From Lysobacter sp. (GTDB lineage Bacteria; Pseudomonadota; Gammaproteobacteria; Xanthomonadales; Xanthomonadaceae), in assembly GCA_013141175.1 (NCBI GenBank), contig JABFRN010000001.1, forward strand, positions 3,244,001 to 3,308,000: a DNA stretch of 64,000 bases. The letters run 5' to 3'. Below the pieces are notes generated by a model that did not search any database, was not told where the DNA came from, and saw nothing but the letters and a program-made list of their open reading frames with translations. Numbering within the stretch: the stretch's first letter is position 1; the number at the start of each line of letters is the position of its first letter. The translations under genes were made by a program, and so were the position numbers. Shown here piece by piece: positions 42,268 to 58,631 of the stretch.

Positions 42268-43348
42268 TGCGCTTCGCGATACGTGCGACGCAGCAGCTCA
42301 TGGAAATGATGCACCGCGTTCTCGCGCAGCGGATTCAAGCGCCCGGCCTCGTACGAACCGGACGACAAGCCGCGCTGCACGTCCTCGCAGATGCCGATGT
42401 CCTCGTCCTGTACCACATCGCTGAAGGAGAGATCCGCTTCGCGGCGCGCGCGGCCGGCGTCGGAATCGTCGGGCGCGTAGTAGAAATCGAACTCCACCCG
42501 GCAGCGATCCACGCCCTTGGGAATGATGCGGTTGGTCTGCATCCGCCCGGGCAGGATATTCAAGGTCGTGTTCGGCCACAGCCAGTAATACAGCGCATCG
42601 CCGCTGCCGTAGAGCCCTTCGCCGCTTTCCAGCGGGCTGAACTGGAACGAATACCACTCGGCGGTTTCGGTCACGTAGCTGCGGTAATCGAGCATCCGGT
42701 TGAGCTCCGGATGCACGTGCGGCACGTGATAGCCCTCCAGGTAATTGTCGACGTACACCTTCCAGTTGCAGGCGATGTCGTACCCGACGCGGTGATGATG
42801 CGTGAACGATGCGAGATCGCGCTCCGCACCGATCCGCGCATCGATCCCGGCCACGAAGGCCTCGAACGGCGGCGCAAGCGCCTCGTCCACCGCCGCGAAC
42901 ACCAACCCCTGCCACACCCGCACCGCAAGCTGCGGCAATCGGATATCGCCCACATCGAAATCCGCCGCATCGGCCATTTCCGTCGCGGCGCGCAACTGCC
43001 CGTCGAGCGCATACGTCCACCCGTGGTACCGACACCGCAACGACTTCGCCCCCAACCCGTCGCACTGCGCCAGCGGCCCCGCCCGATGCCGGCACACGTT
43101 GTGCATCACCCGGATCACCCCATCCGCCCCCGCACCGCGATCACCGGCAACCCGCCCAGATCGGCGATGGCGTGATCCCCGGCATTGCGCAGTTGGCAGA
43201 GGTGGGCGACCAGCTGCCAGCTGCGGTCGAAGATCAGTTTGCGGTCGAGCGCCACCGTCGCGGGGTCGGCGTAGAAACGCGCCGGGAGGGCGGTGGCGTG
43301 ATCGAGGAGTTGTGGGGTTAGGTCGGTGGGGTGGGTGATGAACGTCAT
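42264..43348 (-). pseudogene. Rieske [2Fe-2S] ring-hydroxylating oxygenase alpha subunit, broken by one frameshift
   Basis: From ATG 43348 the frame reads RFYADPATVALDRKLIFDRSW to GLPVIAVRGRMG and stops; the next frame continues GADGVIRVMHNVCRHRAGPL to the normal C-terminus at 42264. One extra G in the G5 run (43127-43131) would restore a 361-residue protein with Rieske ligands CRH and CRYH, the iron-site EGYHVPHVH and a C-terminal domain like choline/carnitine/glycine-betaine monooxygenases. Since the rest of the sequence looks well conserved, the break is either very recent or a sequencing error in the homopolymer. Confidence 0.8.
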
Positions 43349-43443: not shown

Positions 43444-43794
43444 CTATGACGTATCGCCGCGCAGCCCAGCCTGCGCCGCGTCCAGCAGCGCCACCGCTTC
43501 GGCCTGTTCGAGGCGCCGCCCGATCGCCCGCCGCACCGTCTGGCTGAATACATCCCAGACCACACTCTCGTACAGTGCCTCTGCCTCGATCCATGTTCGT
43601 TCGCCGTCGGTCCGCAACCGGTCGCCGACGCGGCGCTGGTATTCGGCCAGCACGATGAACCCGGGCGCGTCCACGCCCAGGTCCACTTCCAGCGACTGAC
43701 CAGGCCGAAGCCGTTTCGCGGCCGTGCCGGAAACGCCTGCGATGTGCATCAGCGTGTCCCGCGCAGCGACAAGGAATGCCTTGTGCTCGTCCAT
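43444..43794 (-). CDS. Hypothetical protein next to HTH regulator A
   Basis: A 116-residue soluble protein, helical at both ends with a beta-rich middle (QSLEVDLGVDAPGFIVLAEYQRRVGDRL). It has no signal peptide and no recognised family. The start ATG 43794 lies 16 bp after the stop of the HTH gene on the same strand, preceded by AGGAGG-like AAGGAGGC, so it is probably translated from the same message. It has no obvious counterpart in the right half of the duplicated region. Confidence 0.6.
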   Translation of the reverse strand: MDEHKAFLVAARDTLMHIAGVSGTAAKRLRPGQSLEVDLGVDAPGFIVLAEYQRRVGDRLRTDGERTWIEAEALYESVVWDVFSQTVRRAIGRRLEQAEAVALLDAAQAGLRGDTS

Positions 43795-43810
43795 GCAATG
43801 CCTCCTTCCT

Positions 43811-44356
43811 TCACTTGAGCAGATCGGTGGCCGGCACCCCGTAGTAGCGGCCCAGCTCCCGGGCGATCCGATAGCGCACCATGCGGCCCAATTCCACGCG
43901 CTTGATCGTGGCCAGCCCGATCTGGATCTGGCGGCGCCAGCAGTCGTCGGCCATCTCCTGCTGGCTCAGCATGTTGGCATCGCGAAGCCGGCGCAGCTTG
44001 GCGGCGTCGAGCTGCACGCAGCCTTTGTGCAGCAATCTCGAATGCGCCAGCGGCGTAACGGGCGGATCTTCAGGCGGAGATTCGCCCTCATGGCGCGCGG
44101 GCAACGCGGAAACGGTCATCGTAGGTAGCGTTACGCTGTGCGCGACGGCATCCGGCGACACGGTCGGAGGTACCTGCATATGCGGTGCTGACGAGGCAGG
44201 TGTAGTCTCGCCGGGAGGTGTGAAGCCCGGTGTCGTGTCTGCCGAAGGAAGCGGATTCACCAGCGAGGCTGCATCGGCGGGCGTCAGGGAAGTGGACGGA
44301 CGGCTGCTGTCGAACACGCTGAACGGTGTGTCGGAATCGGGAAGTTTGAAATCCAT
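43811..44356 (-). CDS. XRE-like HTH regulator A with a disordered N-terminus
   Basis: A 181-residue protein. Residues 1-100 are rich in Pro, Ser and Thr and probably disordered. The C-terminal 65 residues form an HTH of XRE/cro-like layout: LRRLRDANMLSQQEMADDCWRR, then IGLATIKRVELGRMVRYRIARELGRYYGV. The protein encoded at 51113-51499 has the same domain (QQ.(L/M)ADDCWRR, TIKR.ELGR.VR(F/Y)RIARE), so the two are paralogues. ATG 44356 has AGGA upstream; a longer frame reaches 44389. A 44468-44489 direct repeat lies upstream. Confidence 0.72.
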   Translation of the reverse strand: MDFKLPDSDTPFSVFDSSRPSTSLTPADAASLVNPLPSADTTPGFTPPGETTPASSAPHMQVPPTVSPDAVAHSVTLPTMTVSALPARHEGESPPEDPPVTPLAHSRLLHKGCVQLDAAKLRRLRDANMLSQQEMADDCWRRQIQIGLATIKRVELGRMVRYRIARELGRYYGVPATDLLK

Positions 44357-44467
44357 GAGAGCGTTCCTGTTGGAAGTGGCGTCGGCCATCGTTGGGATGG
44401 CATCTACCCCGCAACCACATGCAGCGCGGGGCAGGTCCGACCCTGCCCATTTCCACTTCAGCGAACC

Positions 44468-44489
44468 TTACGGATTGCTTACGATTCGT
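44468..44489. promoter_or_regulatory. Candidate operator: direct repeat TTACG.ATT with 11-bp period
   Basis: TTACGGATTGC (44468-44478) and TTACGATTCGT (44479-44489) repeat with one helical turn. OmpR/CadC-type winged-helix proteins bind such tandem sites, and two regulators of that class are encoded nearby. It lies about 112-133 bp upstream of HTH regulator A. This is a motif guess from one site. Confidence 0.3.
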
Positions 44490-44679
44490 ATGTCTTTGAT
44501 TTTCTGTTGAATTTAATCTGATGGTCAGGCGGTAAGGAACCACGCGGACATCGATCGGACGGGCCAAAGGCATCGCCGAAAGGGATGAAACAGACGATCT
44601 TGATGAATCGAAGGCCGCACTGTCGGCTCGGCGTACTGCGACTGGCAACGACGGACCGGATTCGAATAGCGGAACGAAT

Positions 44680-44701
44680 AAGCCCCGCGTGAGCGGGGCT
44701 T
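44680..44701. terminator. Hairpin terminator after the 44803-45420 gene
   Basis: AAGCCCCGC (44680-44688), GTGA loop, GCGGGGCTT (44693-44701). On the minus strand it follows the small-protein gene by about 100 bp, with only a weak T-rich tail (TTATTCG). Confidence 0.6.
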
Positions 44702-44802
44702 GATTACAGGATCAATAGATATTCGCCTTGTGCTGGTCGACCCCCTTGTTTTTAATTTCAGATTTGATTCGCTTGATCGCCGTTGGCTTCAACTTTGGGC
44801 GG

Positions 44803-45420
44803 TTACGGCTTTTTCGGAGGGTCATTTCCAACTTGCGGATCGCAATCATATGCGTGGTTGGTTTTGTCGGCCAAGTCATCGATGAGAATCGAGAATTCGA
44901 TGTCCTCTCCACGCTTCAGGCTGAAATGAATGAAAACATGCCGCGGTTCCTTGATGTCCTGACGGATTTCGGTGGCGCCGGCTTTGAATGTGAGATCCAC
45001 TTCCTCGGAATCCGGTCCGCTGAGGCAGCAGGCTTCCACGATCGCGCCCTGAGTATTGCATTTCAGGCCGGCAAACCCGAACTTCTGGGAAAGAAAAGGG
45101 TCGTTGAGTAACTCGGTATTGATCACGAGTATCTGACGGATTTTGTCGGTGTTGAATCTGATATTCGGTTTGGAGGACACAAGGTCTGTAGTACCGAGCG
45201 TTGGACCGGCTGCGTACAGGACAAGTTTGCAGTGCTCGTGGCTTTTGGCTCCAATGAGATCCACATCGATTTTGTCGAGGAATTTTTCGAGCGAGGAAGA
45301 CTCTCTCTTCGACAAAATTTGTAGAGATTGCATGAAATCAGGAAAGGATTTCGGTGGGATTGGTGCTAAAGAAACTTGAAATTCCGACTTCGTGACGTGA
45401 GGAATGGAATCTTGCGGCAT
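44803..45420 (-). CDS. Cassette small protein A (C-terminal CDPQ..NDP.K.P signature)
   Basis: A 205-residue soluble protein without signal peptide or TM segment, encoded by AT-richer DNA than the flanks. The sequence is beta-rich from residue 55 on. Its last residues, CDPQVGNDPPKKP, match CDPQASNDPIKNP at the end of the 52583-52996 product, and the preceding 30 residues share a weaker hydrophobic pattern (IEF.I.I vs IDFGVFV). Both genes lie directly downstream of an nSTAND regulator, so they are equivalent members of the two cassette halves. ATG 45420 follows AAGGGGG. Function unknown. Confidence 0.65.
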   Translation of the reverse strand: MPQDSIPHVTKSEFQVSLAPIPPKSFPDFMQSLQILSKRESSSLEKFLDKIDVDLIGAKSHEHCKLVLYAAGPTLGTTDLVSSKPNIRFNTDKIRQILVINTELLNDPFLSQKFGFAGLKCNTQGAIVEACCLSGPDSEEVDLTFKAGATEIRQDIKEPRHVFIHFSLKRGEDIEFSILIDDLADKTNHAYDCDPQVGNDPPKKP

Positions 45421-45518
45421 TGCTAAACCCCCCTTATTGTTGTGGCCTGACTAACTTTGATGGTTTGGGATACGGATGGGTGTGTTGCGGCGACAAGAAT
45501 TCCAGCAAAAGCTTCTAG

Positions 45519-48500
45519 TCATGGGTTCATTTCGGTATCGTTATGACATGGCGGCCTGCTCTTGCCAGGGGAAATGGCAGAATTCCGATACCCTGAAGAC
45601 TCGAGTCGATTCGCCCAGTCGCAAGGAATGGCGCGGGAGTCCAGTAGATCGGTGGCACGGACTTTGAATGCAACGACCTGGATGTCGTCGTCTCTGTTCA
45701 AGTGGTCCAAGTACGTCATTGCCTCAACGGCATCACGGTTTTTTCCAGGTTCTGTATGGCCGGGCGTGAGTGAATGCTTGGCTCTCACGAGCAACGCATC
45801 TACGAGCGCAAATCTCGCATATCGATCGGAGGTATTGAGTTCTACCAGTTTTCGCAGCGCTTCGATCGATTTTTCCATAAATAGCTTGTTGGCGTTTTTT
45901 GCGTCGACACCATGAGTGTCGTACAAGGATTGTCTGAAGTTGATCGTTGCGGCCATCCTTTTCCAAGAGCTTGGTGACGATGGCTTGGGATCAAGAACGG
46001 CCATGGCTGCTCTCAAATGATCTTCGTTGGCAGGCCAATCCTCACGAGCGATGGCGATAGTGCTTGCCATCAAATGAGCATTGGCGAGAAAGCCGGCCAA
46101 AGAATCGTTCCCTGGTTCCATCCTGCGGAGAAAGGCAAGGTGCTGGATTGATCTGGAAATGCTTTTTTCAGCCAACATGGTTTCGCCCAGGTCGAGTTCG
46201 ATAGCGGCTTGGAATTGCATCAGATTGGCGAGTTGGCGCTCCCAATCCCTTGCGTCGGGCTTGTCTTTCAGCAGCGCCTGTATTGCCTGGATCGCACCCG
46301 AATAACATTTGCGCGCCACCTGGAGCTTCCCCATTTTGGCGTAGGTGCGGCAGATGAGAGAATCGGTCACGGCCATTTCGAATCGAAGAGTGGCATCTTC
46401 ATTTCGTACTGCAAGTGCCTGTTTCTTGAGCTGGTTGGATCGGAGGTAATGCTCGACGGCTTGCGGGTAATGGCCCAGTTCATCCTCGATCGAACCGAGG
46501 TTTGTCAGCGCGTAGGATCTTTGGATATGGCTTTCATGATCGTTCGGGTAAGCGGATGTCAACCGCTCGCTGAGACTCTCATACTCCAGCCACGCCTCCC
46601 TCGCGCCCTTCAGGTCGCCTTGCCGCTTGCGAAGTTTGCCAAGCCAGGCCGCAGCTTGCCCGGCTTCGTTGAGGACGAGGCTGGACCTTGGGTCAATGTC
46701 CACCGCGCGCTTTGAAAGATCGACAGAGCGTCGGATCAGTGTTTCGGCGTCTTGCAACTGATTTTGCTCCATCCGGACTTCACCCAGCTTCCTCGATGCA
46801 CGGGAGCAGATGACCATGTCGTTCGCGGACATGTTGCTGTCGCCGAGACCATCGCAGTATTCCAGAACCTTCGTGCTGACATTCTCGATCAGTACGAGGT
46901 TGCCGGAAGGGTCGATCTCATCGGTGAATTCGCCGATCACGACCGTGAGTTCGGACAGCTTGTTCCGCTGCATATTCGCCAGAAAAGCCATCGAGCAGGA
47001 GATGATCGCGAGCACTGTCAGCGCGGCTACGGCCCCGGCGCGCAGGCGACGATTCCGCAGTCTGCGTTGATTGGAACGTGCCAGGAATTCACGCTCGTCA
47101 TCGGTCAAAGGCATGATGACGTGGGCAGGCGCTTCCGACACTTCAATTGCTTCCATCAGCGGCGTGCCCGCATTCAGCAAGTAGTCGTGCGCACGGCCGG
47201 AGATGAGCCATCGCTTGGTCGCGATTTCCAAGCGCGCCCTGGCTTGGAGCAGACGTTGATTCCTTTCGATCCATTCCTTGATGACCGGCCATTGGCGTAG
47301 CAAGGCCTCGTGTGCGACACCGAAAAATGCGTGTCCATCGTCGAAGTCGGTCGCGAACAAACGTCCTTGAATGAATGCTTCGACCAGAACGCGTGCATCG
47401 TTGTCGAGCGTGTCGATCGCGACGCGCCGTCCACCGACGAAATCGTTTTCGGCCTGGACGACGATCAATTTCGCCAGCACAGTGTCCAGTGTGCGCTTGG
47501 CGCTGTCCGGCAGGGCGCGGAACACTGCATCGGCACGGTGCGCGATGGCGCCGCCGATGCGGCCGATGGCTTCATATGCGGCGTATGTGAGGGTGTTGTC
47601 GTCGGTCCGGCGTTCGTAAAGCGCTTGGAGAGCATGCTGCAGTAAGGGTAGAACATCCGGCCGTTCGACCGAATCGGCGAGCATGGTGTCGTCGAGCCGC
47701 TGGCGGGTGATGGCATTGATGCCGAATTTCAGGCCTGCCTGCCATGCAGGGGTGCGGATGATCTCCGCGATTTCTCCGCGTTCCGGCGCTAGGACATCGA
47801 TATGGCCGCAGCCGGTCTTGAGTGCGGTCAGCTTGGGCAGGGCCTGGGAAAGCTCTGGATAGCAATCGCCCCTAGCGATCATCACTACCAACGTTCGCGG
47901 TGTATCGCAAATCGCTTGGAGCACACGTTCGAATGCCGCCGTGGCGTTGGGGTCGTGTCCCGGGGCGACCAACGCCTCCGCGTGATCGATGGTCAACAGA
48001 AGATGCGCGTGTGGCTGTGCACCGCGCACAGGATGGCAACGAAAGGCATGCTCGATGGTTGGGGCGACCGATTCTGGCGCTTCGGTCAGATGAAGCTTCA
48101 AATCCTCGGCGGGCCTGGAGAGAAATATCGGGCGATCGCCCAAGAACCAGCTGGAAAGCGCAGCCGCAAGCTGCAGCATGGGATCTCCGGCAGGCGATGT
48201 GGCGAGATCGCAATCCGCAACAGTCAGCGCCTCCAGTCCGCCGAAACCGCCTGGCGTGGTCATGAACGGTAGCGCACCCGCGCGCAGTAGCGACGACTTT
48301 CCGCAGCCGCTGGCGCCGACGATCAACACGAACCGTCGTTCCAGATCAATCTGGGCGCGCATGGCGCCGAACAGTTCCGCGATCATGCGGTCACGCCCGG
48401 AGAATACTTGCGCGTGGTCGGAGTCGAATGCGGAAAGGCCGACGAATGGACTGCCTCTCGTCCATGCTTCGGTCTGTTTCGGCAGGTGGTGATAATCGTC

Positions 48501-48815
48501 CAGGATCACAACGGTCGGGATTATCTTGTAGCCCTTTCCACGCAACGTCTTGATGTAACGGGGCGCGTGGATGTCGTCGCCGATCTTCTTCCGCAGGCTG
48601 GACATCGCCTTGTTGACCGGATTGTCGCCGTAGAAATCGCCGCCCCACAGCTTGATGAGGAGTTCGTCCTTCCCGATGACGTCTCCGGCTTTTCCGGCAA
48701 CCGCGACGAGCAGTTGCATCTCGCGCGGTTCGAGCGGTATTTCCTCTTCGCCCCGGATCACGAAGTTCCGGTCCGGATGAACCTGCAGGTTGGCGATCTG
48801 GAAGCGGTTATGCAT
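45519..48815 (-). CDS. Membrane nSTAND regulator A: winged helix + nSTAND1-type NTPase + TM + repeats
   Basis: A 1098-residue protein. Residues 1-105 are an OmpR/CadC-type winged helix (LWGGDFYGDNPVNKAMSSLR, APRYIKTLRGKGYKIIP). SPFVGLSAF at about 121 opens an nSTAND1-like NTPase with Walker A GASGCGKSS (167-175) and Walker B LLLTIDHAEAL (272-282). A TM helix (AGAVAALTVLAIISCSMAFLA, about 592-615) separates it from a helical, TPR-like C-terminus (about 650-1000), which would be periplasmic if the DNA-binding end is cytoplasmic. This is the layout of a CadC-like one-component sensor with an NLR-type ATP switch. It is paralogous to the 53159-56518 product. Confidence 0.85.
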   Translation of the reverse strand: MHNRFQIANLQVHPDRNFVIRGEEEIPLEPREMQLLVAVAGKAGDVIGKDELLIKLWGGDFYGDNPVNKAMSSLRKKIGDDIHAPRYIKTLRGKGYKIIPTVVILDDYHHLPKQTEAWTRGSPFVGLSAFDSDHAQVFSGRDRMIAELFGAMRAQIDLERRFVLIVGASGCGKSSLLRAGALPFMTTPGGFGGLEALTVADCDLATSPAGDPMLQLAAALSSWFLGDRPIFLSRPAEDLKLHLTEAPESVAPTIEHAFRCHPVRGAQPHAHLLLTIDHAEALVAPGHDPNATAAFERVLQAICDTPRTLVVMIARGDCYPELSQALPKLTALKTGCGHIDVLAPERGEIAEIIRTPAWQAGLKFGINAITRQRLDDTMLADSVERPDVLPLLQHALQALYERRTDDNTLTYAAYEAIGRIGGAIAHRADAVFRALPDSAKRTLDTVLAKLIVVQAENDFVGGRRVAIDTLDNDARVLVEAFIQGRLFATDFDDGHAFFGVAHEALLRQWPVIKEWIERNQRLLQARARLEIATKRWLISGRAHDYLLNAGTPLMEAIEVSEAPAHVIMPLTDDEREFLARSNQRRLRNRRLRAGAVAALTVLAIISCSMAFLANMQRNKLSELTVVIGEFTDEIDPSGNLVLIENVSTKVLEYCDGLGDSNMSANDMVICSRASRKLGEVRMEQNQLQDAETLIRRSVDLSKRAVDIDPRSSLVLNEAGQAAAWLGKLRKRQGDLKGAREAWLEYESLSERLTSAYPNDHESHIQRSYALTNLGSIEDELGHYPQAVEHYLRSNQLKKQALAVRNEDATLRFEMAVTDSLICRTYAKMGKLQVARKCYSGAIQAIQALLKDKPDARDWERQLANLMQFQAAIELDLGETMLAEKSISRSIQHLAFLRRMEPGNDSLAGFLANAHLMASTIAIAREDWPANEDHLRAAMAVLDPKPSSPSSWKRMAATINFRQSLYDTHGVDAKNANKLFMEKSIEALRKLVELNTSDRYARFALVDALLVRAKHSLTPGHTEPGKNRDAVEAMTYLDHLNRDDDIQVVAFKVRATDLLDSRAIPCDWANRLESSGYRNSAISPGKSRPPCHNDTEMNP

Positions 48816-48844
48816 GACTCAGCATCCTAGCGTTGAGTAAGGAA

Positions 48845-49165
48845 ATGAATCGCTTGCGATTAGACTGCAACCTTATTCCACGCATCGCTTCGATGTAGCG
48901 CGGTGCGTGGATGTTGTCGCCAATCTTCCACCCACAATCTGGACATCGCCTTTTTGACCGGATTCTTGTCATATATGCAATGTACCCACGCCAGAATGAG
49001 CAGTTCGTCGGTGCGCACCGTTTCGTCCGCTTTTCCGGCGAGCGCGATGAGCACTTTCATCTTAAGAGGTGTGAGCAGGATTTGTTCTGCGCCACAGCTC
49101 GCGACGAGCTGATCGGGGTGAACACGCAGATTGGCGATTGATAGGAAATATTCGCGCGCGCCCAT
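48845..49165 (-). pseudogene. Winged-helix relic of a third nSTAND regulator
   Basis: The frame from 49165 reads FLSIANLRVHPDQLVASCGAE to NPVKKAMSRL, closely matching the start of regulator A (FQIANLQVHPDRNFVIRGEE, NPVNKAMSSL). After that a frameshift is needed to recover KIGDNIHAPRYIEAMRG, which again matches regulator A. Homology then ends. The 16 bases before its ATG (AGGATGCTGAGCCATG) also match those before regulator A (AGGATGCTGAGTCATG), so the relic arose by duplication of the gene's 5' end including its upstream region. Confidence 0.8.
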
Positions 49166-49520
49166 GGCTCAGCATCCTCACGTTGCCGAAGGGGAGATAA
49201 CGTTGCTCAAGATGCCCGGGGCTGATTCGCGATGGTGGCGGCAGGATGCGTTCGAATCGCACCGTAGTGCGATGAGATATCGAAGTGATACCGATCGTGA
49301 CTCCATTCCATGTCCGCCCCCTGGCAGTAGGCGCGCCTGCGCCCACATCGGTGATGTCTTGCTGTGCTCTGTCGTGCGATCCCTTGGTACCGTTTCCGGA
49401 TGCAGCCAGTCGTGCTGTCCGGATTGCCGCGATGGTGCCCAGTTGTGGCGCCGGGGCGAGCGCTTGTCAAGAATGACTTTCGGCATGCTCCGGCGCCTTC
49501 GGGCGCCGGAGCATGGGGCA

Positions 49521-50354
49521 TCAGCCCTTCGCTGGAGCCGGAGCAGGGGTAGCAGCGGGCCCACCCGCCTGCCACCCGCAACTCTGCCCCTCGTTCTGCT
49601 GTTTCAGCCATTCCTGCAGCGGCGAGAAGTATTCCAGCACGGCCGAGCCGTCCATCTTTTCGCCGCCGGTGAATTCCTTCATGGTCTTCTGCCACGGTTG
49701 GCCAGCGCCTTTGCCCAGCATCGCCCAGTATTTCTGGCCGGCGTCCTTGTTGCCGTAGTAGCTGCATTCGTAGAGCGGGCCTTTGTGGCCGGCGGCGTCG
49801 CAGAGGGCTTTGTAGAACTGGAACTGCAGGATGTGGGAGAGGAAATAGCGGGTGTAGGGGGTGTTGCCGGGGACGTGGTACTTCGCGCCGGCGTCGAAGA
49901 ATTCCTCGCCGCGCGGGGCGATCGGGCCGACGCCCTGGTACTTGGCTTTGAGTTCCCACCATGCCTGGTTGTAGTGGTCGGGCTTGATCGAGCCGTCGAA
50001 CACGCCCCAGCGCCAGCGGTCGATCATCAGGCCGAAGGGCATGAACGAGACTTTCGCCAGGGCCATGCGCATCTGCGCGTTGATCAGCGCTTCCTTGCTC
50101 TGGTCCTGTGCGTTGACCAGGCCGATCGATTCCAGGTATTTCGGGGTCATGCCGAGCACGATGGTGTCGCCGATGGCTTCGTGGAAGCCGTCGTGCGCGC
50201 CGGTCTGGAACAGCGGCGGTTTGTCGTTCAAAAACCAGACATCGCCTACAGCCACCCATGCTATTTCCCGATGGCGGCTGTCCTGCCACAGCCCTGCGAT
50301 GTCGATCGTGGCCCGGTCGCGATCACAGCGCGTTCCGACGGATAGCCCAAGCAC
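49521..50354 (-). pseudogene. Truncated copy of the M2 peptidase gene
   Basis: Codons from NDKPPLFQTGAHDGFHEAIGD to NEGQSCGWQAG are almost identical to the C-terminal third of the intact M2 peptidase at 56661-58631; the frame upstream of 50228 is unrelated sequence. The zinc-binding HELGH lies just outside the copied part, so the fragment cannot be an active protease, although it keeps the third ligand region (HEAIGD). The last residues differ (GGPAATPAPAPAKG versus GAPAAQR). The copied segment is 665 bp. Confidence 0.88.
49564..50228. repeat. 665-bp direct repeat, left copy
   Basis: Aligns without gaps to 56683-57347 at a constant offset of 7119 bp. I count 12 mismatches by eye, about 98% identity. 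The repeats flank nSTAND regulator B, small protein B, cystatin, HTH regulator B and the lectin, so recombination between them would delete or duplicate this whole block. Confidence 0.93.
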
Positions 50355-50443
50355 GTTTCATTGCGTGCAGCATGTCCCGTTTGGCGCTGGTCAGTTTGCT
50401 CTACGGTGTATTTCAAGCGACTACGTAACGCCGCTGGCGAAAG

Positions 50444-50476
50444 CACGAAGGCCCACCAGAGAGGTGGGCCTTCGTG
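50444..50476 (-). terminator. Strong terminator of the lectin gene
   Basis: A perfect 14-bp stem: CACGAAGGCCCACC (50444-50457), loop AGAGA, GGTGGGCCTTCGTG (50463-50476). On the minus strand it is followed by CTTTCG and lies about 90 bp after the lectin stop. Confidence 0.75.
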
Positions 50477-50563
50477 GGCTGCGGTCTACCGCTGACATGA
50501 CACAGGTTCAGGGATGTCGGGTCTGGTTTGCCCGGTGACTCCAAAGCGGAGTGGCTGTCCTGG

Positions 50564-50974
50564 TCAGCCGCTGTAAGCACCGACATACCAGGGACCGTCA
50601 CCATCCCAGCATTGCTCCTGGACCTGACCGTTCGCCTTGGTGACATAGACGCGCAAGTGAATGGCACCGCCGACATACCATGCCGTTGCCGACGTTTTGC
50701 CACCATCGGTGGACAATGCGCCGACGTACCAGGAATCCTTGTCCCAGCAGTATTCGACGATATTGCCCTGATTGCTGACATAGACGCGGATATGGATTTG
50801 TCCGCCGCTGTCGACCCAACTGGTCGCGCCGACGGACTGCCCTGCGGCTTTCATCGCACCGACATACCATTTGTCGCTGTCCCAGCATTGTTCCGTGACA
50901 TTCTGCCCGTCGCTCGAATAAACGCGAAGGCTGATGTTTCCCCAGCTGACGACAGCAGTATTGGAATTGGACAT
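50564..50974 (-). CDS. Fucose-binding lectin of the RSL/AAL family, three repeats
   Basis: A 136-residue protein made of three repeats of about 43 residues. Each has the pattern SW..(x)LRVY/IRVY, E.CWD, WYVGA: ISLRVYSSDGQNVTEQCWD, IHIRVYVSNQGNIVEYCWD and IHLRVYVTKANGQVQEQCWD. This is the blade of the Ralstonia lectin RSL and the fungal lectin AAL; Arg, Glu and Trp that bind fucose are present in all three. RSL has two blades per chain and trimerises; three blades per chain would need a dimer for a six-bladed propeller. No signal peptide. ATG 50974 with GGGAGA upstream excludes the longer frame. Confidence 0.9.
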   Translation of the reverse strand: MSNSNTAVVSWGNISLRVYSSDGQNVTEQCWDSDKWYVGAMKAAGQSVGATSWVDSGGQIHIRVYVSNQGNIVEYCWDKDSWYVGALSTDGGKTSATAWYVGGAIHLRVYVTKANGQVQEQCWDGDGPWYVGAYSG

Positions 50975-51112
50975 GAGGTGTCTCCCTGTGTGGTTGAAGA
51001 AGTTTTCGACTTGCTGACAGGCGGGTTCGTGTTCCCGCAACCGAATGATGGTCGGCTCCGATCGCGCGCATGGGCCCTTCGCGGATCGTCACCAGTGCCG
51101 CTCCGGTGCGTG

Positions 51113-51499
51113 TCAGTGATGGCATCCGGTTGCCGGGTCTTCAGCGCGCACGATCTGCGTCACCAATACGTCGAAGCAGCGCGCGAATTCGCGGGCGATG
51201 CGGAAGCGCACCGCGCGGCCGAGCTCGGCGCGCTTGATGGTGGTGAGCGACAGCGGGATGTTGCGACGCCAGCAGTCGTCGGCGAGATCCTGCTGGCTCA
51301 TGCATCTGGCTTGGCGCAGTTGGCGGAGCAGGGCGTTGTCGAGCAACACGTGGCCGCGATGCAGGCGTGCGGCGGCGGTCATCCGGGCCGCCTCGACCCC
51401 GCCGGCGTTCTCGCTGACGGTGGGCAGCGGCAGCGCGTCCCCATCGAAGCCGTGAAGGTGGCTGACGCTGTCCTGGGTCTGGGCGTGTGCGAGTTCCAT
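51113..51499 (-). CDS. XRE-like HTH regulator B
   Basis: A 128-residue protein with a C-terminal HTH: LRQLRQARCMSQQDLADDCWRR followed by LSLTTIKRAELGRAVRFRIAREFARCF. It is a paralogue of regulator A at 43811-44356 with a shorter N-terminal region. ATG 51499 follows AGGGGA at good spacing; the open frame continues to 51760 without homology. It lies upstream of the lectin (138-bp gap) and downstream of the cystatin on the same strand, so it is a candidate local regulator. Confidence 0.72.
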   Translation of the reverse strand: MELAHAQTQDSVSHLHGFDGDALPLPTVSENAGGVEAARMTAAARLHRGHVLLDNALLRQLRQARCMSQQDLADDCWRRNIPLSLTTIKRAELGRAVRFRIAREFARCFDVLVTQIVRAEDPATGCHH

Positions 51500-51919
51500 G
51501 GTGGTCCCCTTGTCTGGAAGGATGGATGCCATCGCGATCGATGACGGCCGGATGGCGTCGCTGCCTGTTCTGCCAGCTTGCGACTGCCGAGGGAACGCAC
51601 CGTCATGGGTGGCCTGCGGCAGTGGCATGGAGAGAAGCGGCGCCATGGAACGGAGCCTGCGCAACAGGCCGCTTTGGTTCCTTCCGGGAACCTTCCGATC
51701 TTCAAGTGATTGATTCAACAGGCGGCGATCGATGTGGGATGCTTCATGCACATGTCGCAACAGATGCGGCGCCGCGCGATGCGCTGCGGCGGACCATGGT
51801 CATCCAGGTGCGCGAAGCATGCGCAGCAGTGGTGTCGATACCGTCGATCTGCGCCCGGCGCAGGGCGCGGGGGCGATCAGGATGGCAATGGCAGCGCTTC
51901 GTGGCGTCGCCGCCCCGTC
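51500..51919. other. Intergenic region between cystatin and HTH regulator B
   Basis: 420 bp with no credible gene. Overlapping ORFs on both strands lack binding sites and homology. It must hold the promoter of regulator B, but I found no confident -35/-10 pair and no strong terminator after the cystatin gene. Confidence 0.4.
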
Positions 51920-52198
51920 TCACGGGCGGATCGGGATGATCCGGTAGTGGGTGGGTCTGGCGCTCTGCGGCTGGTGGATGTAAACCTTCACCGTGTTCTC
52001 GTCCGGGAACGGGGTTGCGTACTGCACTTCGCAGAGGAAGCAGTAGTCGGTGCCTGCCACGGCCCGGCTGGCGAATGCGAGCGGCGTGTACTTTGCGCCG
52101 GATAGCGGGGGCATCGCGGTCTCGAAAACATCCTTCGCTTCCGGGGTGAGGGTGAAATCGAAATTCGACCATCCGCCGGCCAGAACCCGGTTCGACAT
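51920..52198 (-). CDS. Stefin-like cystatin (cysteine protease inhibitor)
   Basis: A 92-residue protein with the three cystatin contact regions: an N-terminal AGGW glycine pair, the first hairpin loop SRAVAGTDYCFLCEVQY (consensus QxVxG, here RAVAG, as in QVVAGTNYF of stefins) and a later hairpin KVYIHQPQSARPTHYRI matching stefin HLRVFQSLP. No signal peptide and no disulfide pair, as in type 1 cystatins. Such proteins block papain-like proteases. ATG 52198 is preceded by AAGGAG, a strong site. The call comes from motif matching by eye. Confidence 0.75.
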   Translation of the reverse strand: MSNRVLAGGWSNFDFTLTPEAKDVFETAMPPLSGAKYTPLAFASRAVAGTDYCFLCEVQYATPFPDENTVKVYIHQPQSARPTHYRIIPIRP

Positions 52199-52582
52199 GA
52201 CGTGCTCCTTGCGATGCGTGCAAATGTGATGCGACGGGTGGGTGTGGAGCCAAGGCGATCAGGAAACGGTCGTGTCGCGATGTTTTCGGGGTTCGATCGT
52301 TTTCGCAGCGTCATCGTTGCAGATCCGGTTCTCCCGGATAGCGGCTTTGCCGATCCATTTCGGTGCCGAGCCGATATGTCACCGGGCACCGGTATTCCGG
52401 AAAAGAAAAGCCCACCTTTGCGGTGGGCTTTCGTATCCGGTCGGCTCGCAGTGCAGTGGGCGATGGAATCGCGCTGCATTACGATTCCATCGATGCAGTG
52501 ATGCCAAGACTGTCTTGTCCATCCGCCCCGAAGAAAACGATTTGTTTCCAGTTCGGTTCGGCTGCTCAAGATCAAGGGGAAT
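52199..52582. other. Intergenic region between small protein B and cystatin
   Basis: 384 bp without a credible gene. It contains the terminator at 52401-52431 and must hold the cystatin promoter. Plus-strand ORFs over it are shadows without binding sites. Confidence 0.5.
52401..52431 (-). terminator. Rho-independent terminator after small protein B
   Basis: AAAGCCCACC (52407-52416), loop TTTGC, GGTGGGCTTT (52422-52431). On the minus strand the stem is followed by TCTTTT, so it ends the 52583-52996 gene and isolates the cystatin gene. Confidence 0.8.
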
Positions 52583-52996
52583 TCATGGGTTTTTGATCGG
52601 GTCGTTGCTGGCCTGCGGGTCGCAAAAAAGTATTGTCGCTGGCTCGCCGCGCCGTTCGATCATGACGAATACTCCGAAGTCGATCAATTGGTTGGGCAGA
52701 AGACTTATCGTGAAAGTGGCTGATTGCGAATCTTTACCCAATTCGAATGAGCTTATCGGCGAGCGTATATTTGATACGTCCGTGGATGACACGCCCGTGG
52801 ATGCGTAGTTGGCAATGTACGCTGTAGCGTCCGTTCTATTGTTCAATCTGATTTCGACTGGCATGGCGGAACTGTCGATAATGACGTGCCTGTTTTTGTA
52901 AGACCACCTGAATTCGTGATCTTTTTCAGAGATATCCAATTCGATAGTCCTGGGTCCTTGTGCGGCCAGATCGCCGCCGTGTAAGAATCTGGTCAT
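52583..52996 (-). CDS. Cassette small protein B (C-terminal CDPQ..NDP.K.P signature)
   Basis: A 137-residue beta-rich protein without signal peptide. It has a LELDISEKD-like start (IELDISEKDHEFRWSYKNR), an Asn/Ser/Thr-rich centre and the C-terminus CDPQASNDPIKNP shared with the 44803-45420 product. The ATG at 52996 overlaps the TGA of a 36-codon ORF (53103-52993) as ATGA, which may be a leader peptide. It lies downstream of nSTAND regulator B, mirroring small protein A. Function unknown. Confidence 0.62.
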   Translation of the reverse strand: MTRFLHGGDLAAQGPRTIELDISEKDHEFRWSYKNRHVIIDSSAMPVEIRLNNRTDATAYIANYASTGVSSTDVSNIRSPISSFELGKDSQSATFTISLLPNQLIDFGVFVMIERRGEPATILFCDPQASNDPIKNP

Positions 52997-53158
52997 GTCG
53001 AGCGTTCCTCTTTGTAGTTGGTGGTCGCGGCTTGGAGATTGTCCGGCGATGGCGCTTGCCGGCGAAGCCGTCTTTCGAAGGCAGGGCTTGGATCTTGCAT
53101 CATGAGTATTTCAAGGTACGGATTTGGATTCGGTGCCTTTGCGGATTCTTTCCGGCGT

Positions 53159-56100
53159 TCATTTCGATTGCGATGTCTTTGGTTGAGCATTGCTCAAGCT
53201 CACAATCCGCATGAAATCCGGATCGCGGTATCCGATTTTCGTCAGCCACGCGATTTCCGTTTCGACGCGATCGCGATCGCCGAGCAGAAGGTGGGCGCTG
53301 GCCCAGGGGGCGATGACATTCGGATCTTTCGAGGTTTTCGCCATCGTTCCGAGCAAGCCGATCACGTGTTCCCAGTCGCTGCGCGCTTCGATCTTCGATC
53401 CGATGTCCCATCGATGTTTGCCTCGAGAGATCAATGCCTTCGCGAGCACACACCTGTCGGGGATGCTGCCGTCCGGATCTTTGGCGATGCGTTCCAGACC
53501 CGCCAAGGCCCTGTTCCTCTTCGCGTCGGCATCGATGGCGTCGGGTCGGGCTTGGGCGATCAAAAGACCGGTGTTCGCATCCAGACGTTGCAATGCCAGT
53601 GAAGCATCGGCTGAGGTCTTGATGTCCTGAATCAACTTTTCGGCGATCAGGGCGTGCGAGAGATGATTGCCGCTGTCTCCGCGCATGTGTGCGATTTCGC
53701 CTGCTTCGATGTGCGCCAGAACCAGGTCGCGCGCCCAGACCTGGTTGTCGGGCTCTCGAGCGGTCAATGCCGACAGCAGGGCAATGCTTTCCGCCGTCTG
53801 CGCGTGGGCCTCCTCCAGGCGCCCGCGGGATGCCGCGAGTTGTCCGCTGCTCAACAGCGATGTTGCAAGCCGCCGTTCCCAAACGAGCGCATCGGATTTG
53901 TTCGCAACCAGCGTGCGCAGCATGCCGATTTGTTCGGCATATCCGCTCGCGGCCTCGGACAGACGCCCTTCAGAACCATCGCCACTGCTGATCCAGGAGA
54001 GCGTGTCGACCAGATCGTATCGCAGTGCGTCGTCATGAGGCCGTGCAGAAAGAACGCTTGCCTTGAGCTTGGCCGAGCGCTTGAAATATGCGAGAGCCTC
54101 ATCGATGCGCCCCTGGTCCCGGGTGACGGCACCGAGGTTGTTGAGCGCATACGACAGCTCGATCTGCCAGTCGGCTTTTCCCGGATCCAGACGGACCAGT
54201 GTTTCGCTGGTCTGTAGATAGATGGCCCAGTGCTTGCGCGCTTCATCCAGCTGACTTTGCCGGTAATGATAGTAGCCCAGCCAATATGCTGCGATGCCCT
54301 GTTCGGCGATGGCATCCGCAGACCCGGGCGCGCGTGCGACCGCGCTGCGTGCCGCCTCGTCGGCGCGCGTGAAGGCGGACTTCGCTTCTTTCAGCTTCGC
54401 CTGTTCCATCATCACTTCGCCGACCGTGCGCAGGGCACGGGACCGGTTGATCAGATCTTCGGTGCGGGTCTGCGCCTTGGGCCGGCGTTCCAGTTGAGCC
54501 AGCGCTTTGGCGCTGATGCCGTCGAGCAGTTTGAGGTTGCCCAGCGGGCGCAGTTTCTCGGCCAGGTCCACCAGCATGAAGTCGGACAGCTGCAGGGCTT
54601 CTTCGCGGCGGTGTTCGGCTTCATCGCGGGCCTGCGACGCGAGCAAACCGAATACGGCGGAGACGGTCGCGAATACCGCCAGACTCGCGATCGCTGCGGC
54701 GCGCAGCCAGCGTTTGCGCCGGTAAAGACGCGCCGATGCCTGAAGGAATGCGTGTTCATCGGGGCCGAGATCGTCGGGCAACCGCGACGCGGCTTCCAGC
54801 GATTCCTGCAACGGTCGACCGGGGTTGAGCAATTGATCGGCGATGCGTCCTTCTTCCACCCAACGCGCAGCCGCGCGGCGCATGCGGGCCTTGGCTTGCA
54901 ACAGACGACGATTGTCCTGGGTCCAGTCGCGCGCGCGCGGCCATTGCCGCAACAAGGCTTCATGCGCCACCCGGAAGCCCGCGTGGCCATCGCTCAATTC
55001 AGCGATGAACAGGCGGGCGCGGACGAAGGTTTCGGCGAGTGTGCGTGCGTTTTCGTCCAACGCGGACCAGACGACGCGGCGGGCGCTGACGCTGTCGCTG
55101 TCCTGTTGCATCACGATCAACTGCGAGAAGACGCTGTCGAGGCTGCGCTTGGCGGAATCGGGCAGGGTGGCGAAGACTTCCTCTGCGCGATGCGCGAGCG
55201 CGCCCTCCAGACCGCCGATCTCGCGGTAGGCATCGAAGCGCAGTTCGCCGTCGTCGCTGCGGCGTTCGTACAGCGCCTGCAGCGTGTGCTGCAGCAGCGG
55301 TAGCGCATCGGGGTGTTCGTTCGCGGCGTCGCGCAATACGTCGTCGAGGTGCTCGGTGGTCTGCGGGTCTTCCTCGAAGGTCAAACCCGCCAGCGCGGCG
55401 GGTGTGCGGATGATCTGGGCGATCTCGCCGGAACGAGGGGTCAACACATCGAAATGGCCCTCGCCCAATTTGCGTACGGCGACTTCCGGGTAGGTTTCGA
55501 CCAGTGCGAGGTAGAAGTCGCCGCGGACGATCATCGCCACCATCACCCGCGGCGATTCGCACAAGTGGTGCAGCGCGCGCGAAAACGCGGCATCCCGCTC
55601 CGGGTCATGGGCGCGGGTCGCGACCAGCGCTTCGGCATGGTCGATCAACAGCAGAAGATGCGCGTGCGGTTGATCCGCGAGTTCGCGCGAGGGATGACGG
55701 CGGAATGCCTCCTCGATGGTGGCGGTGATCGATTCCGGCGATTGCCGGATCGCAGAGGCAAGGTCGGCGGCCGGTCCGGGTGCGAACACCGGCCGTCCAC
55801 CGAGCGTCCAGGTCTTCAGCGATACGGCGAGATGGGTCAAAGCGTCGCCGGCTTCGATGCCGGCCAGATCGCAGTTTGCGATCGCGAGTGCGCGCAAGCC
55901 GTCGAAACCGCCGTCCTGGAGCAACAGCGGCAGCGCGCCTGCATTCAGCAGCGAGGTTTTGCCGCAGCCGCTGGCGCCGACGATGAGCACGAACCGTCGC
56001 TGGTTGTCGATCTGCTGGCGTATCGCGGCGAGCAGCTCCGCGGTGACGCGGCTGCGCCCGAAAAACACGCCGGCGTGTTCGCCATCGAACGCGGCGAGGC

Positions 56101-56518
56101 CGACGTAGGGGCTGGCATTGCTCCAGGCCGAGGTCTGTACGGCAACGCGCCGGTAGTCATCGGGATACGAGACTTTGGCGATCAGCCGATAGCCGCGTTT
56201 GCGGATGGTTTCGATGTAGCGCGGCGACTTCAGATCGTCGCCGAAGACTTTTCGCAGATAAGCGATGGCCTTGTGGACCGGGTTGTCGCCGTAGAAAGTG
56301 CCGCGCCAGACTTCGATCAGCAGTTGTTCGGCACTGACCACCTCGCCGGCATGCTCGGCCAATGCGATCAGCACTTCCATCATCCGCGGTTCGAGCTCGG
56401 TGTCCTGACCGTCGAGCGATACCACCAGACGGTCGGGTTGCACCAGCAGCGCACCGACGCGGAAGCGCGAGTGCGTCGCCAGGGTCCTGATACGATCGGT
56501 GCGCAGTTGCATAAACAT
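53159..56518 (-). CDS. Membrane nSTAND regulator B: winged helix + nSTAND1-type NTPase + TM + repeats
   Basis: A 1119-residue paralogue of regulator A. The winged helix spans about residues 15-118 (VWRGTFYGDNPVHKAIAYLR, SPRYIETIRKRGYRLIAK). SPYVGLAAFDGEHAGVFFGR opens the NTPase: Walker A GASGCGKTS (182-190), Walker B LLLLIDHAEAL (about 288-298). A TM helix at about 605-627 (AAAIASLAVFATVSAVFGLLA) precedes a TPR-like helical region. Homology to A covers the whole length but is clearly diverged, unlike the 98% identical M2 repeat. ATG 56518 or 56512 may be used; 56512 has AGGA at better spacing. The 142-bp gap from the M2 gene allows co-transcription. Confidence 0.86.
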   Translation of the reverse strand: MFMQLRTDRIRTLATHSRFRVGALLVQPDRLVVSLDGQDTELEPRMMEVLIALAEHAGEVVSAEQLLIEVWRGTFYGDNPVHKAIAYLRKVFGDDLKSPRYIETIRKRGYRLIAKVSYPDDYRRVAVQTSAWSNASPYVGLAAFDGEHAGVFFGRSRVTAELLAAIRQQIDNQRRFVLIVGASGCGKTSLLNAGALPLLLQDGGFDGLRALAIANCDLAGIEAGDALTHLAVSLKTWTLGGRPVFAPGPAADLASAIRQSPESITATIEEAFRRHPSRELADQPHAHLLLLIDHAEALVATRAHDPERDAAFSRALHHLCESPRVMVAMIVRGDFYLALVETYPEVAVRKLGEGHFDVLTPRSGEIAQIIRTPAALAGLTFEEDPQTTEHLDDVLRDAANEHPDALPLLQHTLQALYERRSDDGELRFDAYREIGGLEGALAHRAEEVFATLPDSAKRSLDSVFSQLIVMQQDSDSVSARRVVWSALDENARTLAETFVRARLFIAELSDGHAGFRVAHEALLRQWPRARDWTQDNRRLLQAKARMRRAAARWVEEGRIADQLLNPGRPLQESLEAASRLPDDLGPDEHAFLQASARLYRRKRWLRAAAIASLAVFATVSAVFGLLASQARDEAEHRREEALQLSDFMLVDLAEKLRPLGNLKLLDGISAKALAQLERRPKAQTRTEDLINRSRALRTVGEVMMEQAKLKEAKSAFTRADEAARSAVARAPGSADAIAEQGIAAYWLGYYHYRQSQLDEARKHWAIYLQTSETLVRLDPGKADWQIELSYALNNLGAVTRDQGRIDEALAYFKRSAKLKASVLSARPHDDALRYDLVDTLSWISSGDGSEGRLSEAASGYAEQIGMLRTLVANKSDALVWERRLATSLLSSGQLAASRGRLEEAHAQTAESIALLSALTAREPDNQVWARDLVLAHIEAGEIAHMRGDSGNHLSHALIAEKLIQDIKTSADASLALQRLDANTGLLIAQARPDAIDADAKRNRALAGLERIAKDPDGSIPDRCVLAKALISRGKHRWDIGSKIEARSDWEHVIGLLGTMAKTSKDPNVIAPWASAHLLLGDRDRVETEIAWLTKIGYRDPDFMRIVSLSNAQPKTSQSK

Positions 56519-56660
56519 CCTGTCCGATAGAGGAACGCCGGCGGGCTTGCTTCATACGCCACGCATCATAGCCAGCGCGACCCGCAATGCGCAGGATTGT
56601 TCGCCGCAAAGCAGAAGGCCGGCTCGCGCCGGCCTTCGATTCAATTGAGCGCGATGAAGG

Positions 56661-58631
56661 TCAGCGTTGCGCTGCGGGCGCCCCCGCCTGCCACCCACAA
56701 CTCTGTCCCTCGTTCTGCTGTTTCAGCCACTCCTGCAGCGGCGAGAAGTATTCCAGCACTGCCGAGCCGTCCATCTTTTCGCCGCCGGTGAGTTCCTTCA
56801 TGGTCTTCTGCCACGGTTGGCCAGCGCCTTTGCCCAGCATCGCCCAGTACTTCTGGCCGGCGTCCTTGTTGCCGTAGTAGCTGCATTCGTAGAGCGGGCC
56901 TTTGTGGCCGGCGGCGTCGCAGAGGGCTTTGTAGAACTGGAACTGCAGGATGTGGGAAAGGAAGTAGCGGGTGTAGGGGGTGTTGCCGGGGACGTGGTAC
57001 TTCGCGCCGGCGTCGAAGAATTCCTCGCCGCGGGGGGCGATCGGGCCGACGCCCTGGTACTTGGCCTTGAGTTCCCACCATGCCTGGTTGTAGTGGTCGG
57101 GCTTGATCGAGCCGTCGAACACGCCCCAGCGCCAGCGGTCGATCATCAGGCCGAAGGGCATGAACGAGACTTTCGCCAGGGCCATGCGCATCTGCGCGTT
57201 GATCAGCGCTTCCTTGCTCTGGTCCTGCGCGTTGACCAGGCCGATCGATTCCAGGTATTTCGGGGTCATGCCGAGGACGATGGTGTCGCCGATGGCTTCG
57301 TGGAAGCCGTCGTGCGCGCCGGTCTGGAACAGCGGCGGTTTGTCGTTGTAGGCGAGGTAGTAATAGACGTGGCCGAGTTCGTGGTAGATCGTGGTGAACT
57401 CTTCCTCGTTCGGCTTGATGCACATCTTGGTGCGCACGTCGCCGCCCATGGTCATGTCCCAGGCGCTGGCGTGGCAGACCACGTCGCGGTCGCGCGGCTG
57501 GATGAACTGGGTGTTCTGCCAGTAACTTTCCGGCAATTTTGGCATGCCCAGCGAGACGTAGAAATCCTCGGCGCGCTGGGTCATCTGTTTGGCGGTCGCC
57601 AACTGCGCTTCGCGGTCGGCCTCGACGATTTTCTCCGCAGTCGCTTCGCCTTCGATCTTCGCGCGCGCGGCGGAAAGATTGCGCTGGTACTGCGCCTGCA
57701 GCGCGCTGTTGATGTCGAGGCTGCCGGCGCCCTTGTACGGTTCCAGCACGTCCCAGAGGTTGCCCCAGTCCTGTTGCCACATATTGCCCATCAGATGCGC
57801 GGGCAGCATGCCGCCGGCGACCTGGCCCTTGTCGGCGCCGTATTTGGCTTTCAGTTTGGTGCGGGTGTAGCAGTGCAGTTGTTCGTAGAGCGGTTTGACC
57901 TGGCCCCAGAGGCGGTCGGTTTCGGCGGCGATTTCGGCGGGACTCATGTCGTAGCCAGAACGCCACATCTCGCCGGTGTCGGCGAAGCCCATGCCTTTCG
58001 CGCCGTCGTTGACCAGTTCGGCGAAGCGCACGTAATCCTTGCGCATCGGCTGCGAGATGGTGTGCCAGCCCTGCCAGGCATCGAGCTGCGCCTGATAGTC
58101 GCGGCTCTTGGCCAGCACTTCGCTGAGTTCGCCCAGATCGCGGCATTGCTGCTTGTCGCCTTCGCCGGTGCAGTACTTGCCCGCGCCGTAGTCGCCTTCC
58201 ATCTTGGTGGCGATCCTGGTGAGTTCCTCGAGCTTCTTGGCGTCGTCCGGCGGCGGCATCGCGGTCGAGAGTTTCAGCAGCAGGATGGTGCGCGCGCTTT
58301 CCGGCGACATCTTCTGGCCTTCGAACGGCTTCGCCGCCTTGATCCAGGTGTTGAGCAGGGTGAGATAGCGTTCGTTGGCCTTTGCGGCGATGGCCTGGGT
58401 GTCGTCGGTGATGTAGGTCGACGACAGCCACTGCGCTGCGGTCAGATCCGGATAGATCGCCCTGTATTCCTGATTGACGCGGGCCACGAAAGCGTCGGCG
58501 TCCGCATCGGCCTTGGCGGCTGCGGCGGTGTCGCCGGTCGCGGCGTCGCCCGAAGCGTCTTTCTTGCATGCCGACAGGGACAGCAGGCCGGCGCCGATGG
58601 CGAGGGCCAGAAGGGTGGTGCGATGGTTCAC
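56661..58631 (-). CDS. M2 family peptidyl-dipeptidase (ACE-like), lipoprotein
   Basis: A 656-residue zinc peptidase related to angiotensin-converting enzyme. The N-terminus is a lipoprotein signal with lipobox LSLSAC at Cys 22. The zinc motif HELGH is at residues 417-421 in FTTIYHELGHVYYY, the third ligand Glu in HDGFHEAIGD. VCHASAWDM and the C-terminal LGKGAGQPWQKTMKEL region are also conserved. Bacterial M2 enzymes release dipeptides from the C-terminus of peptides; the native substrate is unknown. Codons 428 onward are duplicated at 49564-50228. Confidence 0.95.
   Translation of the reverse strand: MNHRTTLLALAIGAGLLSLSACKKDASGDAATGDTAAAAKADADADAFVARVNQEYRAIYPDLTAAQWLSSTYITDDTQAIAAKANERYLTLLNTWIKAAKPFEGQKMSPESARTILLLKLSTAMPPPDDAKKLEELTRIATKMEGDYGAGKYCTGEGDKQQCRDLGELSEVLAKSRDYQAQLDAWQGWHTISQPMRKDYVRFAELVNDGAKGMGFADTGEMWRSGYDMSPAEIAAETDRLWGQVKPLYEQLHCYTRTKLKAKYGADKGQVAGGMLPAHLMGNMWQQDWGNLWDVLEPYKGAGSLDINSALQAQYQRNLSAARAKIEGEATAEKIVEADREAQLATAKQMTQRAEDFYVSLGMPKLPESYWQNTQFIQPRDRDVVCHASAWDMTMGGDVRTKMCIKPNEEEFTTIYHELGHVYYYLAYNDKPPLFQTGAHDGFHEAIGDTIVLGMTPKYLESIGLVNAQDQSKEALINAQMRMALAKVSFMPFGLMIDRWRWGVFDGSIKPDHYNQAWWELKAKYQGVGPIAPRGEEFFDAGAKYHVPGNTPYTRYFLSHILQFQFYKALCDAAGHKGPLYECSYYGNKDAGQKYWAMLGKGAGQPWQKTMKELTGGEKMDGSAVLEYFSPLQEWLKQQNEGQSCGWQAGAPAAQR
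56683..57347. repeat. 665-bp direct repeat, right copy
   Basis: Right copy of the repeat described at 49564-50228, here part of the intact M2 gene. The left copy begins 22 bp after the HELGH codons in the direction of translation. Confidence 0.93.

Follow-up and report, generated by a model that had tools for sequence, protein, structure and literature searches.

SO1698 is a self-cleaving, self-assembling protein of Shewanella for which, to our knowledge, there is no known biological role; it represents the DP-EP family (PF08985, formerly DUF1888). Among transcription regulators, AfsR and MalT hold a DNA-binding domain, a STAND ATPase and TPR repeats in one chain, and those of the CadC/ToxR type have a cytosolic winged helix, one transmembrane (TM) helix and a C-terminal sensor half. 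AfsR is reported to switch on the small gene afsS as its target, while its ATPase and TPR domains hold the regulator itself in check (PMC10936776). Here we describe a gene pair found in a window of 64,000 nucleotides (positions 3244001-3308000 of a 4.16-Mb single-contig genome of the Xanthomonadaceae), in which a STAND regulator gene is followed by a gene for a small protein that ends in a characteristic tail. We are nearly certain that this regulator and tail-motif protein form a real and conserved two-gene module. The pair is built of known parts, occurs in several proteobacterial families and is undescribed in the literature that we searched. The window holds two copies, each followed by a hairpin.

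53159..56518, minus strand: right regulator, with a winged helix (Trans_reg_C), an nSTAND1 NTPase, one TM helix (near residue 608) and TPR repeats in that order, from Pfam and hydropathy.
52583..52996, minus strand: right small protein of 137 amino acids (aa), tail CDPQASNDPIKNP, with the SO1698 (DP-EP) fold in an AlphaFold model.
52385..52440, minus strand: terminator-like hairpin 3' of the right regulator/small-protein pair, from folding (-28.4 kcal/mol, z -4.93).
45519..48815, minus strand: left regulator, winged helix-nSTAND1-TM (near residue 595)-TPR, from Pfam and hydropathy.
44803..45420, minus strand: left small protein of 205 aa, tail CDPQVGNDPPKKP, from the sequence.
44660..44720, minus strand: terminator-like hairpin 3' of the left regulator/small-protein pair, from folding (-19.8 kcal/mol, z -3.55).

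A preliminary description of the window had named beforehand what would refute it, a lack of co-occurrence of these genes in other genomes and of homology between the paired proteins. The outcome was the opposite: regulator and tail protein do occur together, in all 40 matches within the family, in other families and in an alphaproteobacterium. With the right regulator as query, 49 of 297 family genomes, belonging to 9 of 54 genera, gave a match at E <= 1e-60; two candidates were scored per genome, so that more copies are possible, and one was seen. The tail was searched independently of the regulator, as a DNA pattern across all 297 genomes. This pattern matched 40 times in 34 of them, and every match lay 360-2113 nt downstream of a regulator match on the same strand; a reversed control pattern gave none among the matches listed. 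A tighter version recovered only the window's genome among 369 genomes of the class, few of them from the family. In a collection of 84,980 species a strict version found 33 stretches, 32 of which came from Xanthomonas, Lysobacter and relatives, and the tail could be read in an open reading frame (ORF) in 30 of the 33, with two others at the edge of a locus. Only one match, in Amnibacterium, fell outside the Xanthomonadaceae; there the motif sits in a frame rich in arginine, with 42 more residues behind it, and the match was set aside as chance. The exact tail pattern is missing from 15 of the 49 regulator-bearing family genomes, eight of which have a variant tail (G061, G067, G101, G144, G157, G172, G189 and G238). 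In three more (G004, G056 and G084) the only candidate is a weaker one, a secreted protein that has IDPEL close to its C-terminus. The sequence of G110 and G204 stops near the edge of a contig, and G094 and G192 fall outside this account.

The same pairing was found in more distant bacteria. Among 219 genomes of the phylum that were searched, four have further winged-helix regulators (G660, G853, G859 and G641), and a fifth distant regulator lies on a plasmid of Niveispirillum cyanobacteriorum. Behind each of the five near-full-length regulators outside the family, one of them in an alphaproteobacterium, stands a small gene with an Asp-Pro (DP) tail. It overlaps the regulator by 4 nt in Niveispirillum, follows it after gaps of 2 (G853), 10 (G859) and 32 nt (G641), and lies close behind in G660. 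In G853 two DP-tailed genes follow one another, and the product of the second begins with a signal-like segment. All four small proteins of G853, G859 and G641, which are three genomes of the class, pass the PF08985 model (35.2-76.2 bits, cut-off 25), and one of them matches an SO1698 chain at 5e-30. The Niveispirillum small protein matched no Pfam family. Four of the distant regulators were scanned, and nSTAND1 and Trans_reg_C pass in each. Five additional phylum matches (L139-L143) have no winged helix and align only from residue 117-131 onward. Three of these loci end inside the gene, so that the flank cannot be judged; L139 and L140 showed no tail motif in the 1.35-1.41 kb behind the gene, and L139 has a 336-aa ORF with Asp-Pro near its end.

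Starting instead from PF08985, a search of the family of G859 gave three matches in nine genomes, all just downstream of the regulator (G859 itself was already known from the regulator search); the protein of G934 among them ends in a variant tail, HDPAVINKERH. Searches for DP-EP in 274 genomes of the class and in 73 genomes of one genus found none, with the control genomes silent too, and an SO1698 fragment had no match among plasmids. DP-EP is thus rare, since the larger searches found none, and the linkage test that starts from DP-EP rests on those three matches in nine genomes. Through this linkage, which spans several proteobacterial families and extends to one alphaproteobacterium, the DP-EP family gains a STAND transcription regulator as partner, and the role of DP-EP becomes a testable question on a gene pair.

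Searches of the literature, with subscription journals mostly outside coverage, returned nothing on the tail motif, on SO1698, or on nSTAND together with Xanthomonas (plus winged helix and TPR) or with Lysobacter. DUF1888 appeared only on an unrelated subject, and DP-EP paired with a regulator was not found in the literature searched. The name nSTAND1 comes from work on conflict systems (PMC8195603), and another paper that uses it concerns targeted hypermutation of sensors (PMC10907252).

Both window regulators match nSTAND1 (7e-85 and 1e-78) and Trans_reg_C (8e-18 and 2e-17) in Pfam, with TPR_2 above cut-off in both. Walker A is present in all 39 regulators examined, and 37 of the 39 regulators placed in a tree have a hydrophobic segment at residue 544-661. 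Around the best hydrophobic window, Lys and Arg are in excess before rather than after it in 36 of these 37, with a tie in the other. Since more basic residues precede the segment than follow it, the positive-inside rule indicates that the TPR half is probably periplasmic. The resulting topology resembles that of CadC/ToxR-type regulators, to the extent that ours is predicted, but the window regulators carry an ATPase in between; the match to the CadC model is weak and far below cut-off. They are like AfsR and MalT in joining DNA-binding domain, STAND ATPase and TPR in one chain, and AfsR has a small gene, afsS, on which it acts. In contrast to both AfsR and MalT, they have a TM helix between ATPase and TPR, an OmpR-type winged helix, an ATPase of the nSTAND1 kind and a partner with the DP-EP fold. 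The suggestion in the preliminary description that envelope cues may be sensed fits the single TM helix ahead of the TPR half.

The two window regulators share 44% protein identity overall, divided unequally among the winged helix (49%), nSTAND1 (57%) and the TPR half (27% identical residues). Bacterial immune systems make use of STAND ATPases that carry TPR sensors, and the TPR half and the partner proteins are the most variable parts here, as might be expected of an Avs-like STAND sensor with a variable partner in anti-phage defence. The N-terminus, however, is a DNA-binding winged helix rather than a nuclease or other killer domain, and PADLOC profiles gave weak matches only, all at the P-loop, the best at 30.6 bits (mad8). 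We therefore regard a defence role as improbable.

The shared C-terminal signature of the two small proteins, already noticed in the preliminary description, is borne out, with 9 of 13 residues common to both and a consensus near CDPQVGNDP. The 137-aa protein of the window and a relative from Xanthomonas were modelled with AlphaFold, and for each model SO1698 is the best match among all chains of the Protein Data Bank (PDB); on this basis the small protein very likely has the DP-EP fold, a beta-sandwich. Further likeness to SO1698 lies in the Asp-Pro tail, which HMMER, with a Xanthomonas/Lysobacter profile, aligns with Asp116-Pro117, and in the PF08985 members that stand behind homologous regulators in the three other class genomes. 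PF08985 is matched by 3 of 18 members of the Xanthomonas/Lysobacter set, with a best E of 0.002. The window proteins differ from SO1698 in missing the Pfam profile and in the absence of a Ser114 equivalent throughout the genus; in the own-genus and Xanthomonas/Lysobacter groups Cys, not Pro, mostly stands before the Asp. The next-best structural neighbours are PixA (PF12306) and MakC/MakD. For PixA, sequence profiles give no support for homology and the resemblance is near the level of common arrangements; a PixA gene does co-occur in one cassette of a relative.

The residues around the tail were compared among the small proteins, leaving aside the third one of the relative 2PB (L154) and those of G934 and G939. 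An equivalent of Ser114, placed by sequence register two residues before the Asp, is found in 0 of 17 own-genus proteins, 21 of 26 from Xanthomonas/Lysobacter and 5 of 10 others. Cys precedes the Asp in 40 of the 43 own-genus and Xanthomonas/Lysobacter proteins and in 1 of the 10 others; SO1698 has Pro there. SO1698 chains with S114A and with D37A were deposited uncut in the PDB. A candidate equivalent of Asp37 is invariant in 18 aligned proteins, and the own-genus alignment is uncertain at that site. Bodies can be aligned between own-genus groups R and P and between the Xanthomonas/Lysobacter and c48 groups. Because the tail is kept in the genus though the Ser114 equivalent is lost and the bodies have diverged, these comparisons indicate that selection holds on to the tail, also in proteins for which self-cutting is in doubt. 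Nature thus provides a graded set of proteins that retain the tail but have lost bodies and a cleavage-linked residue. As a separate observation, G+C falls to 53% at 44001-46000 and 57% at 52001-54000, against about 65% in most of the window, and both stretches contain the small-protein genes.

Building on the observed pairing, close gene order and domains and on the predicted fold, we infer that the STAND transcription regulator is anchored in the membrane and has the tail-marked protein of DP-EP fold as its cognate partner, an overall reading to which we give an even chance. A signal at the TPR half would switch the ATPase, and the winged helix would then drive transcription of its own operon and of neighbouring helix-turn-helix (HTH) and cargo genes. 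Since most of the small proteins have no signal peptide, they would act mainly in the cytosol, as cognate partners of the regulator. A conserved cytosolic part of the regulator would read the tail, so that the tail would stay while the body and the TPR half diversify. Something presumably reads the tail, and the regulator is the candidate that is always present. For the specific role of the small protein as partner or feedback element of the regulator, our confidence falls just short of even.

Several results weigh against this model. Pfam TPR models are below cut-off or absent in all four distant regulators scanned. The fold model of the window protein was built on eight aligned sequences, three of them Xanthomonas/Lysobacter relatives, structural alignments with SO1698 are one residue off register at the tail end in both models, and the window small proteins match no Pfam family, the PF08985 profile included. 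Without the tail, bodies cannot be aligned between most groups, and the tail may persist for no other reason than that it forms the final strand of the fold. Two of 27 N-termini are signal-like, contrary to a purely cytosolic role (from hydropathy only, with the 26 Xanthomonas/Lysobacter proteins not included). Finally AfsR, the nearest studied case, activates its small gene afsS as a target (PMC10936776). This precedent favours a reading in which the small protein would be the regulator's main product, as in AfsR-AfsS, namely a self-assembling or lectin-like beta-sandwich whose tail is retained for folding, assembly or self-cleavage. Yet the bodies diverge beyond recognition and the tail does not, and the serine mutated in an uncut SO1698 chain has no equivalent in any of the 17 own-genus proteins. 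We consider such an output role possible, if somewhat doubtful. A more specific form of signalling would have the DP-EP-fold protein cut at, or presenting, its nearly invariant Asp-Pro tail (PQVGNDP) for the STAND regulator to read, with self-cutting as a one-shot switch; the genus copies would no longer be cut but would still use the tail as a tag for recognition. We think this unlikely.

Other genes surround the two pairs. On the minus strand, genes resembling minD and minE, together with one for an M2 peptidase, lie upstream of two series that each run from regulator through small protein to HTH gene; further genes are interspersed.

56661..58631, minus strand: M2 family peptidase (Pfam Peptidase_M2, 2.6e-202), a flanking gene.
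51920..52198, minus strand: 92-aa protein, earlier named cystatin, present in three loci of the genus; no family above cut-off.
About 51113..51499, minus strand: right XRE-like HTH protein; HTH match below Pfam cut-off.
50564..50974, minus strand: fucose-lectin-like protein (NCBIfam NF052355 Ralst_lectin, 155 bits, cut-off 100).
50430..50490, minus strand: terminator-like hairpin 3' of the lectin gene, from folding (z -4.63).
49552..50228, minus strand: M2 gene fragment, 97.8% identical to 56671-57347 by DNA comparison; a recent partial copy.
48860..49165, minus strand: relic of a third regulator, winged-helix part only, with 71% DNA identity to the start of the left regulator; Trans_reg_C at 16.3 bits, below cut-off.
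43811..44389, minus strand: left XRE-like HTH protein; HTH match below Pfam cut-off.
43444..43794, minus strand: 116-aa protein of no family, from reading of the loci; relatives lie downstream of the HTH gene in seven genus loci, directly so in six.

The hairpins after the two pairs and the lectin gene are based on folding alone, and a consensus terminator scan (13 sites, 16.9 in shuffles) lists none of the three.

The preliminary description saw in these genes one tandemly duplicated cassette of M2 peptidase, regulator, small protein and HTH gene, acting jointly on eukaryotes. Its gene order does recur, from the M2 gene onward on the right and from the M2 fragment and winged-helix relic onward on the left. 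The parts have diverged far too unequally for a single tandem duplication, however. The M2 fragment differs from the M2 gene at only 15 positions in 677 nt, whereas left and right DNA identity, over alignable parts only, is 75% for the HTH genes and 64% for the regulators. A tree of 39 regulator sequences agrees: upstream and downstream copies of several same-genus genomes separate, with longer branches for the downstream copies. It places the split of the two regulators deep in the genus with moderate support, as the fork uniting the downstream copies has values of 81/99 and a composition warning applies to 17 rows, including the left regulator. One tandem duplication was rejected on these grounds, subject to the support of that fork. 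We conclude that duplication of the module in the window's genus is an old event. By the same comparisons the M2 piece was copied late and in part only, and 48860-49165 is what is left of another regulator. In 7 of the 10 own-genus loci read, the M2 gene immediately precedes the regulator, but it is not a regular member elsewhere, since an M2-family gene occurs in only 2 of 23 other loci (L053 and L054) and does not adjoin the regulator there. It is therefore a neighbour in the window's genus and not a member of the module. Taken together, the unequal divergence, the irregular M2 gene and the deep split of the regulators make the cassette proposal highly improbable.

The HTH gene is a closer companion. 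The two HTH proteins were said to share their domain, and they are indeed 43% identical over 127 aa, but their matches to HTH_3 and HTH_31 remain below Pfam cut-offs. Of 16 HTH matches in 139 genomes, 15 adjoin the module, one of these being a third module in 2PB, and the exception (G090:C12) is away from any module match. In that genome (L153 6906-7388) the HTH relative has as its neighbour an ORF of 161 aa that belongs to no Pfam family. The HTH gene accompanies the module in the window's genus and in genus g5, at 12 of 33 loci.

The identification of the lectin holds, as the Ralst_lectin model is passed, whereas the cystatin label for the 92-aa protein was dropped, because no Pfam or NCBIfam family exceeds its cut-off and no cystatin of the PDB matches at an E below 1. 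The position that follows the right HTH gene is occupied by the fucose-lectin-like gene in the window, by PixA (1.3e-26) in PRO5 (L007/L008) and by a ricin-B-type lectin in 2PB (L009). In the window's genus, then, the module is accompanied by an HTH gene and by cargo that varies between lectin and PixA. The production of eukaryote-directed proteins, also proposed earlier, finds indirect support only, through the genes in this slot.

Other neighbours were seen at particular loci. In genus g5 (L049, L050 and L051) the regulator is followed by the HTH gene and then by a signal-bearing protein with IDPEL near its end, which is perhaps an exported relative of the small protein. In four of five Lysobacter loci read (L052, L054, L055 and L056) the gene immediately before the regulator encodes a conserved peptide of 73 aa, rich in Cys and putatively secreted. 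Proteins of about 460 aa form another family, encoded 3' of the small-protein gene in Lysobacter and in two genera related to it, with nine genes in eight loci (L052-L058 and L060); the one member scanned had no Pfam match above cut-off. Within the window, the gene for a Rieske-type ring hydroxylase at 42264-43348 is apparently split into two frames near 43100-43115, by sequencing error or decay, and relatives of about 360-376 aa occupy the same place in other loci of the genus.

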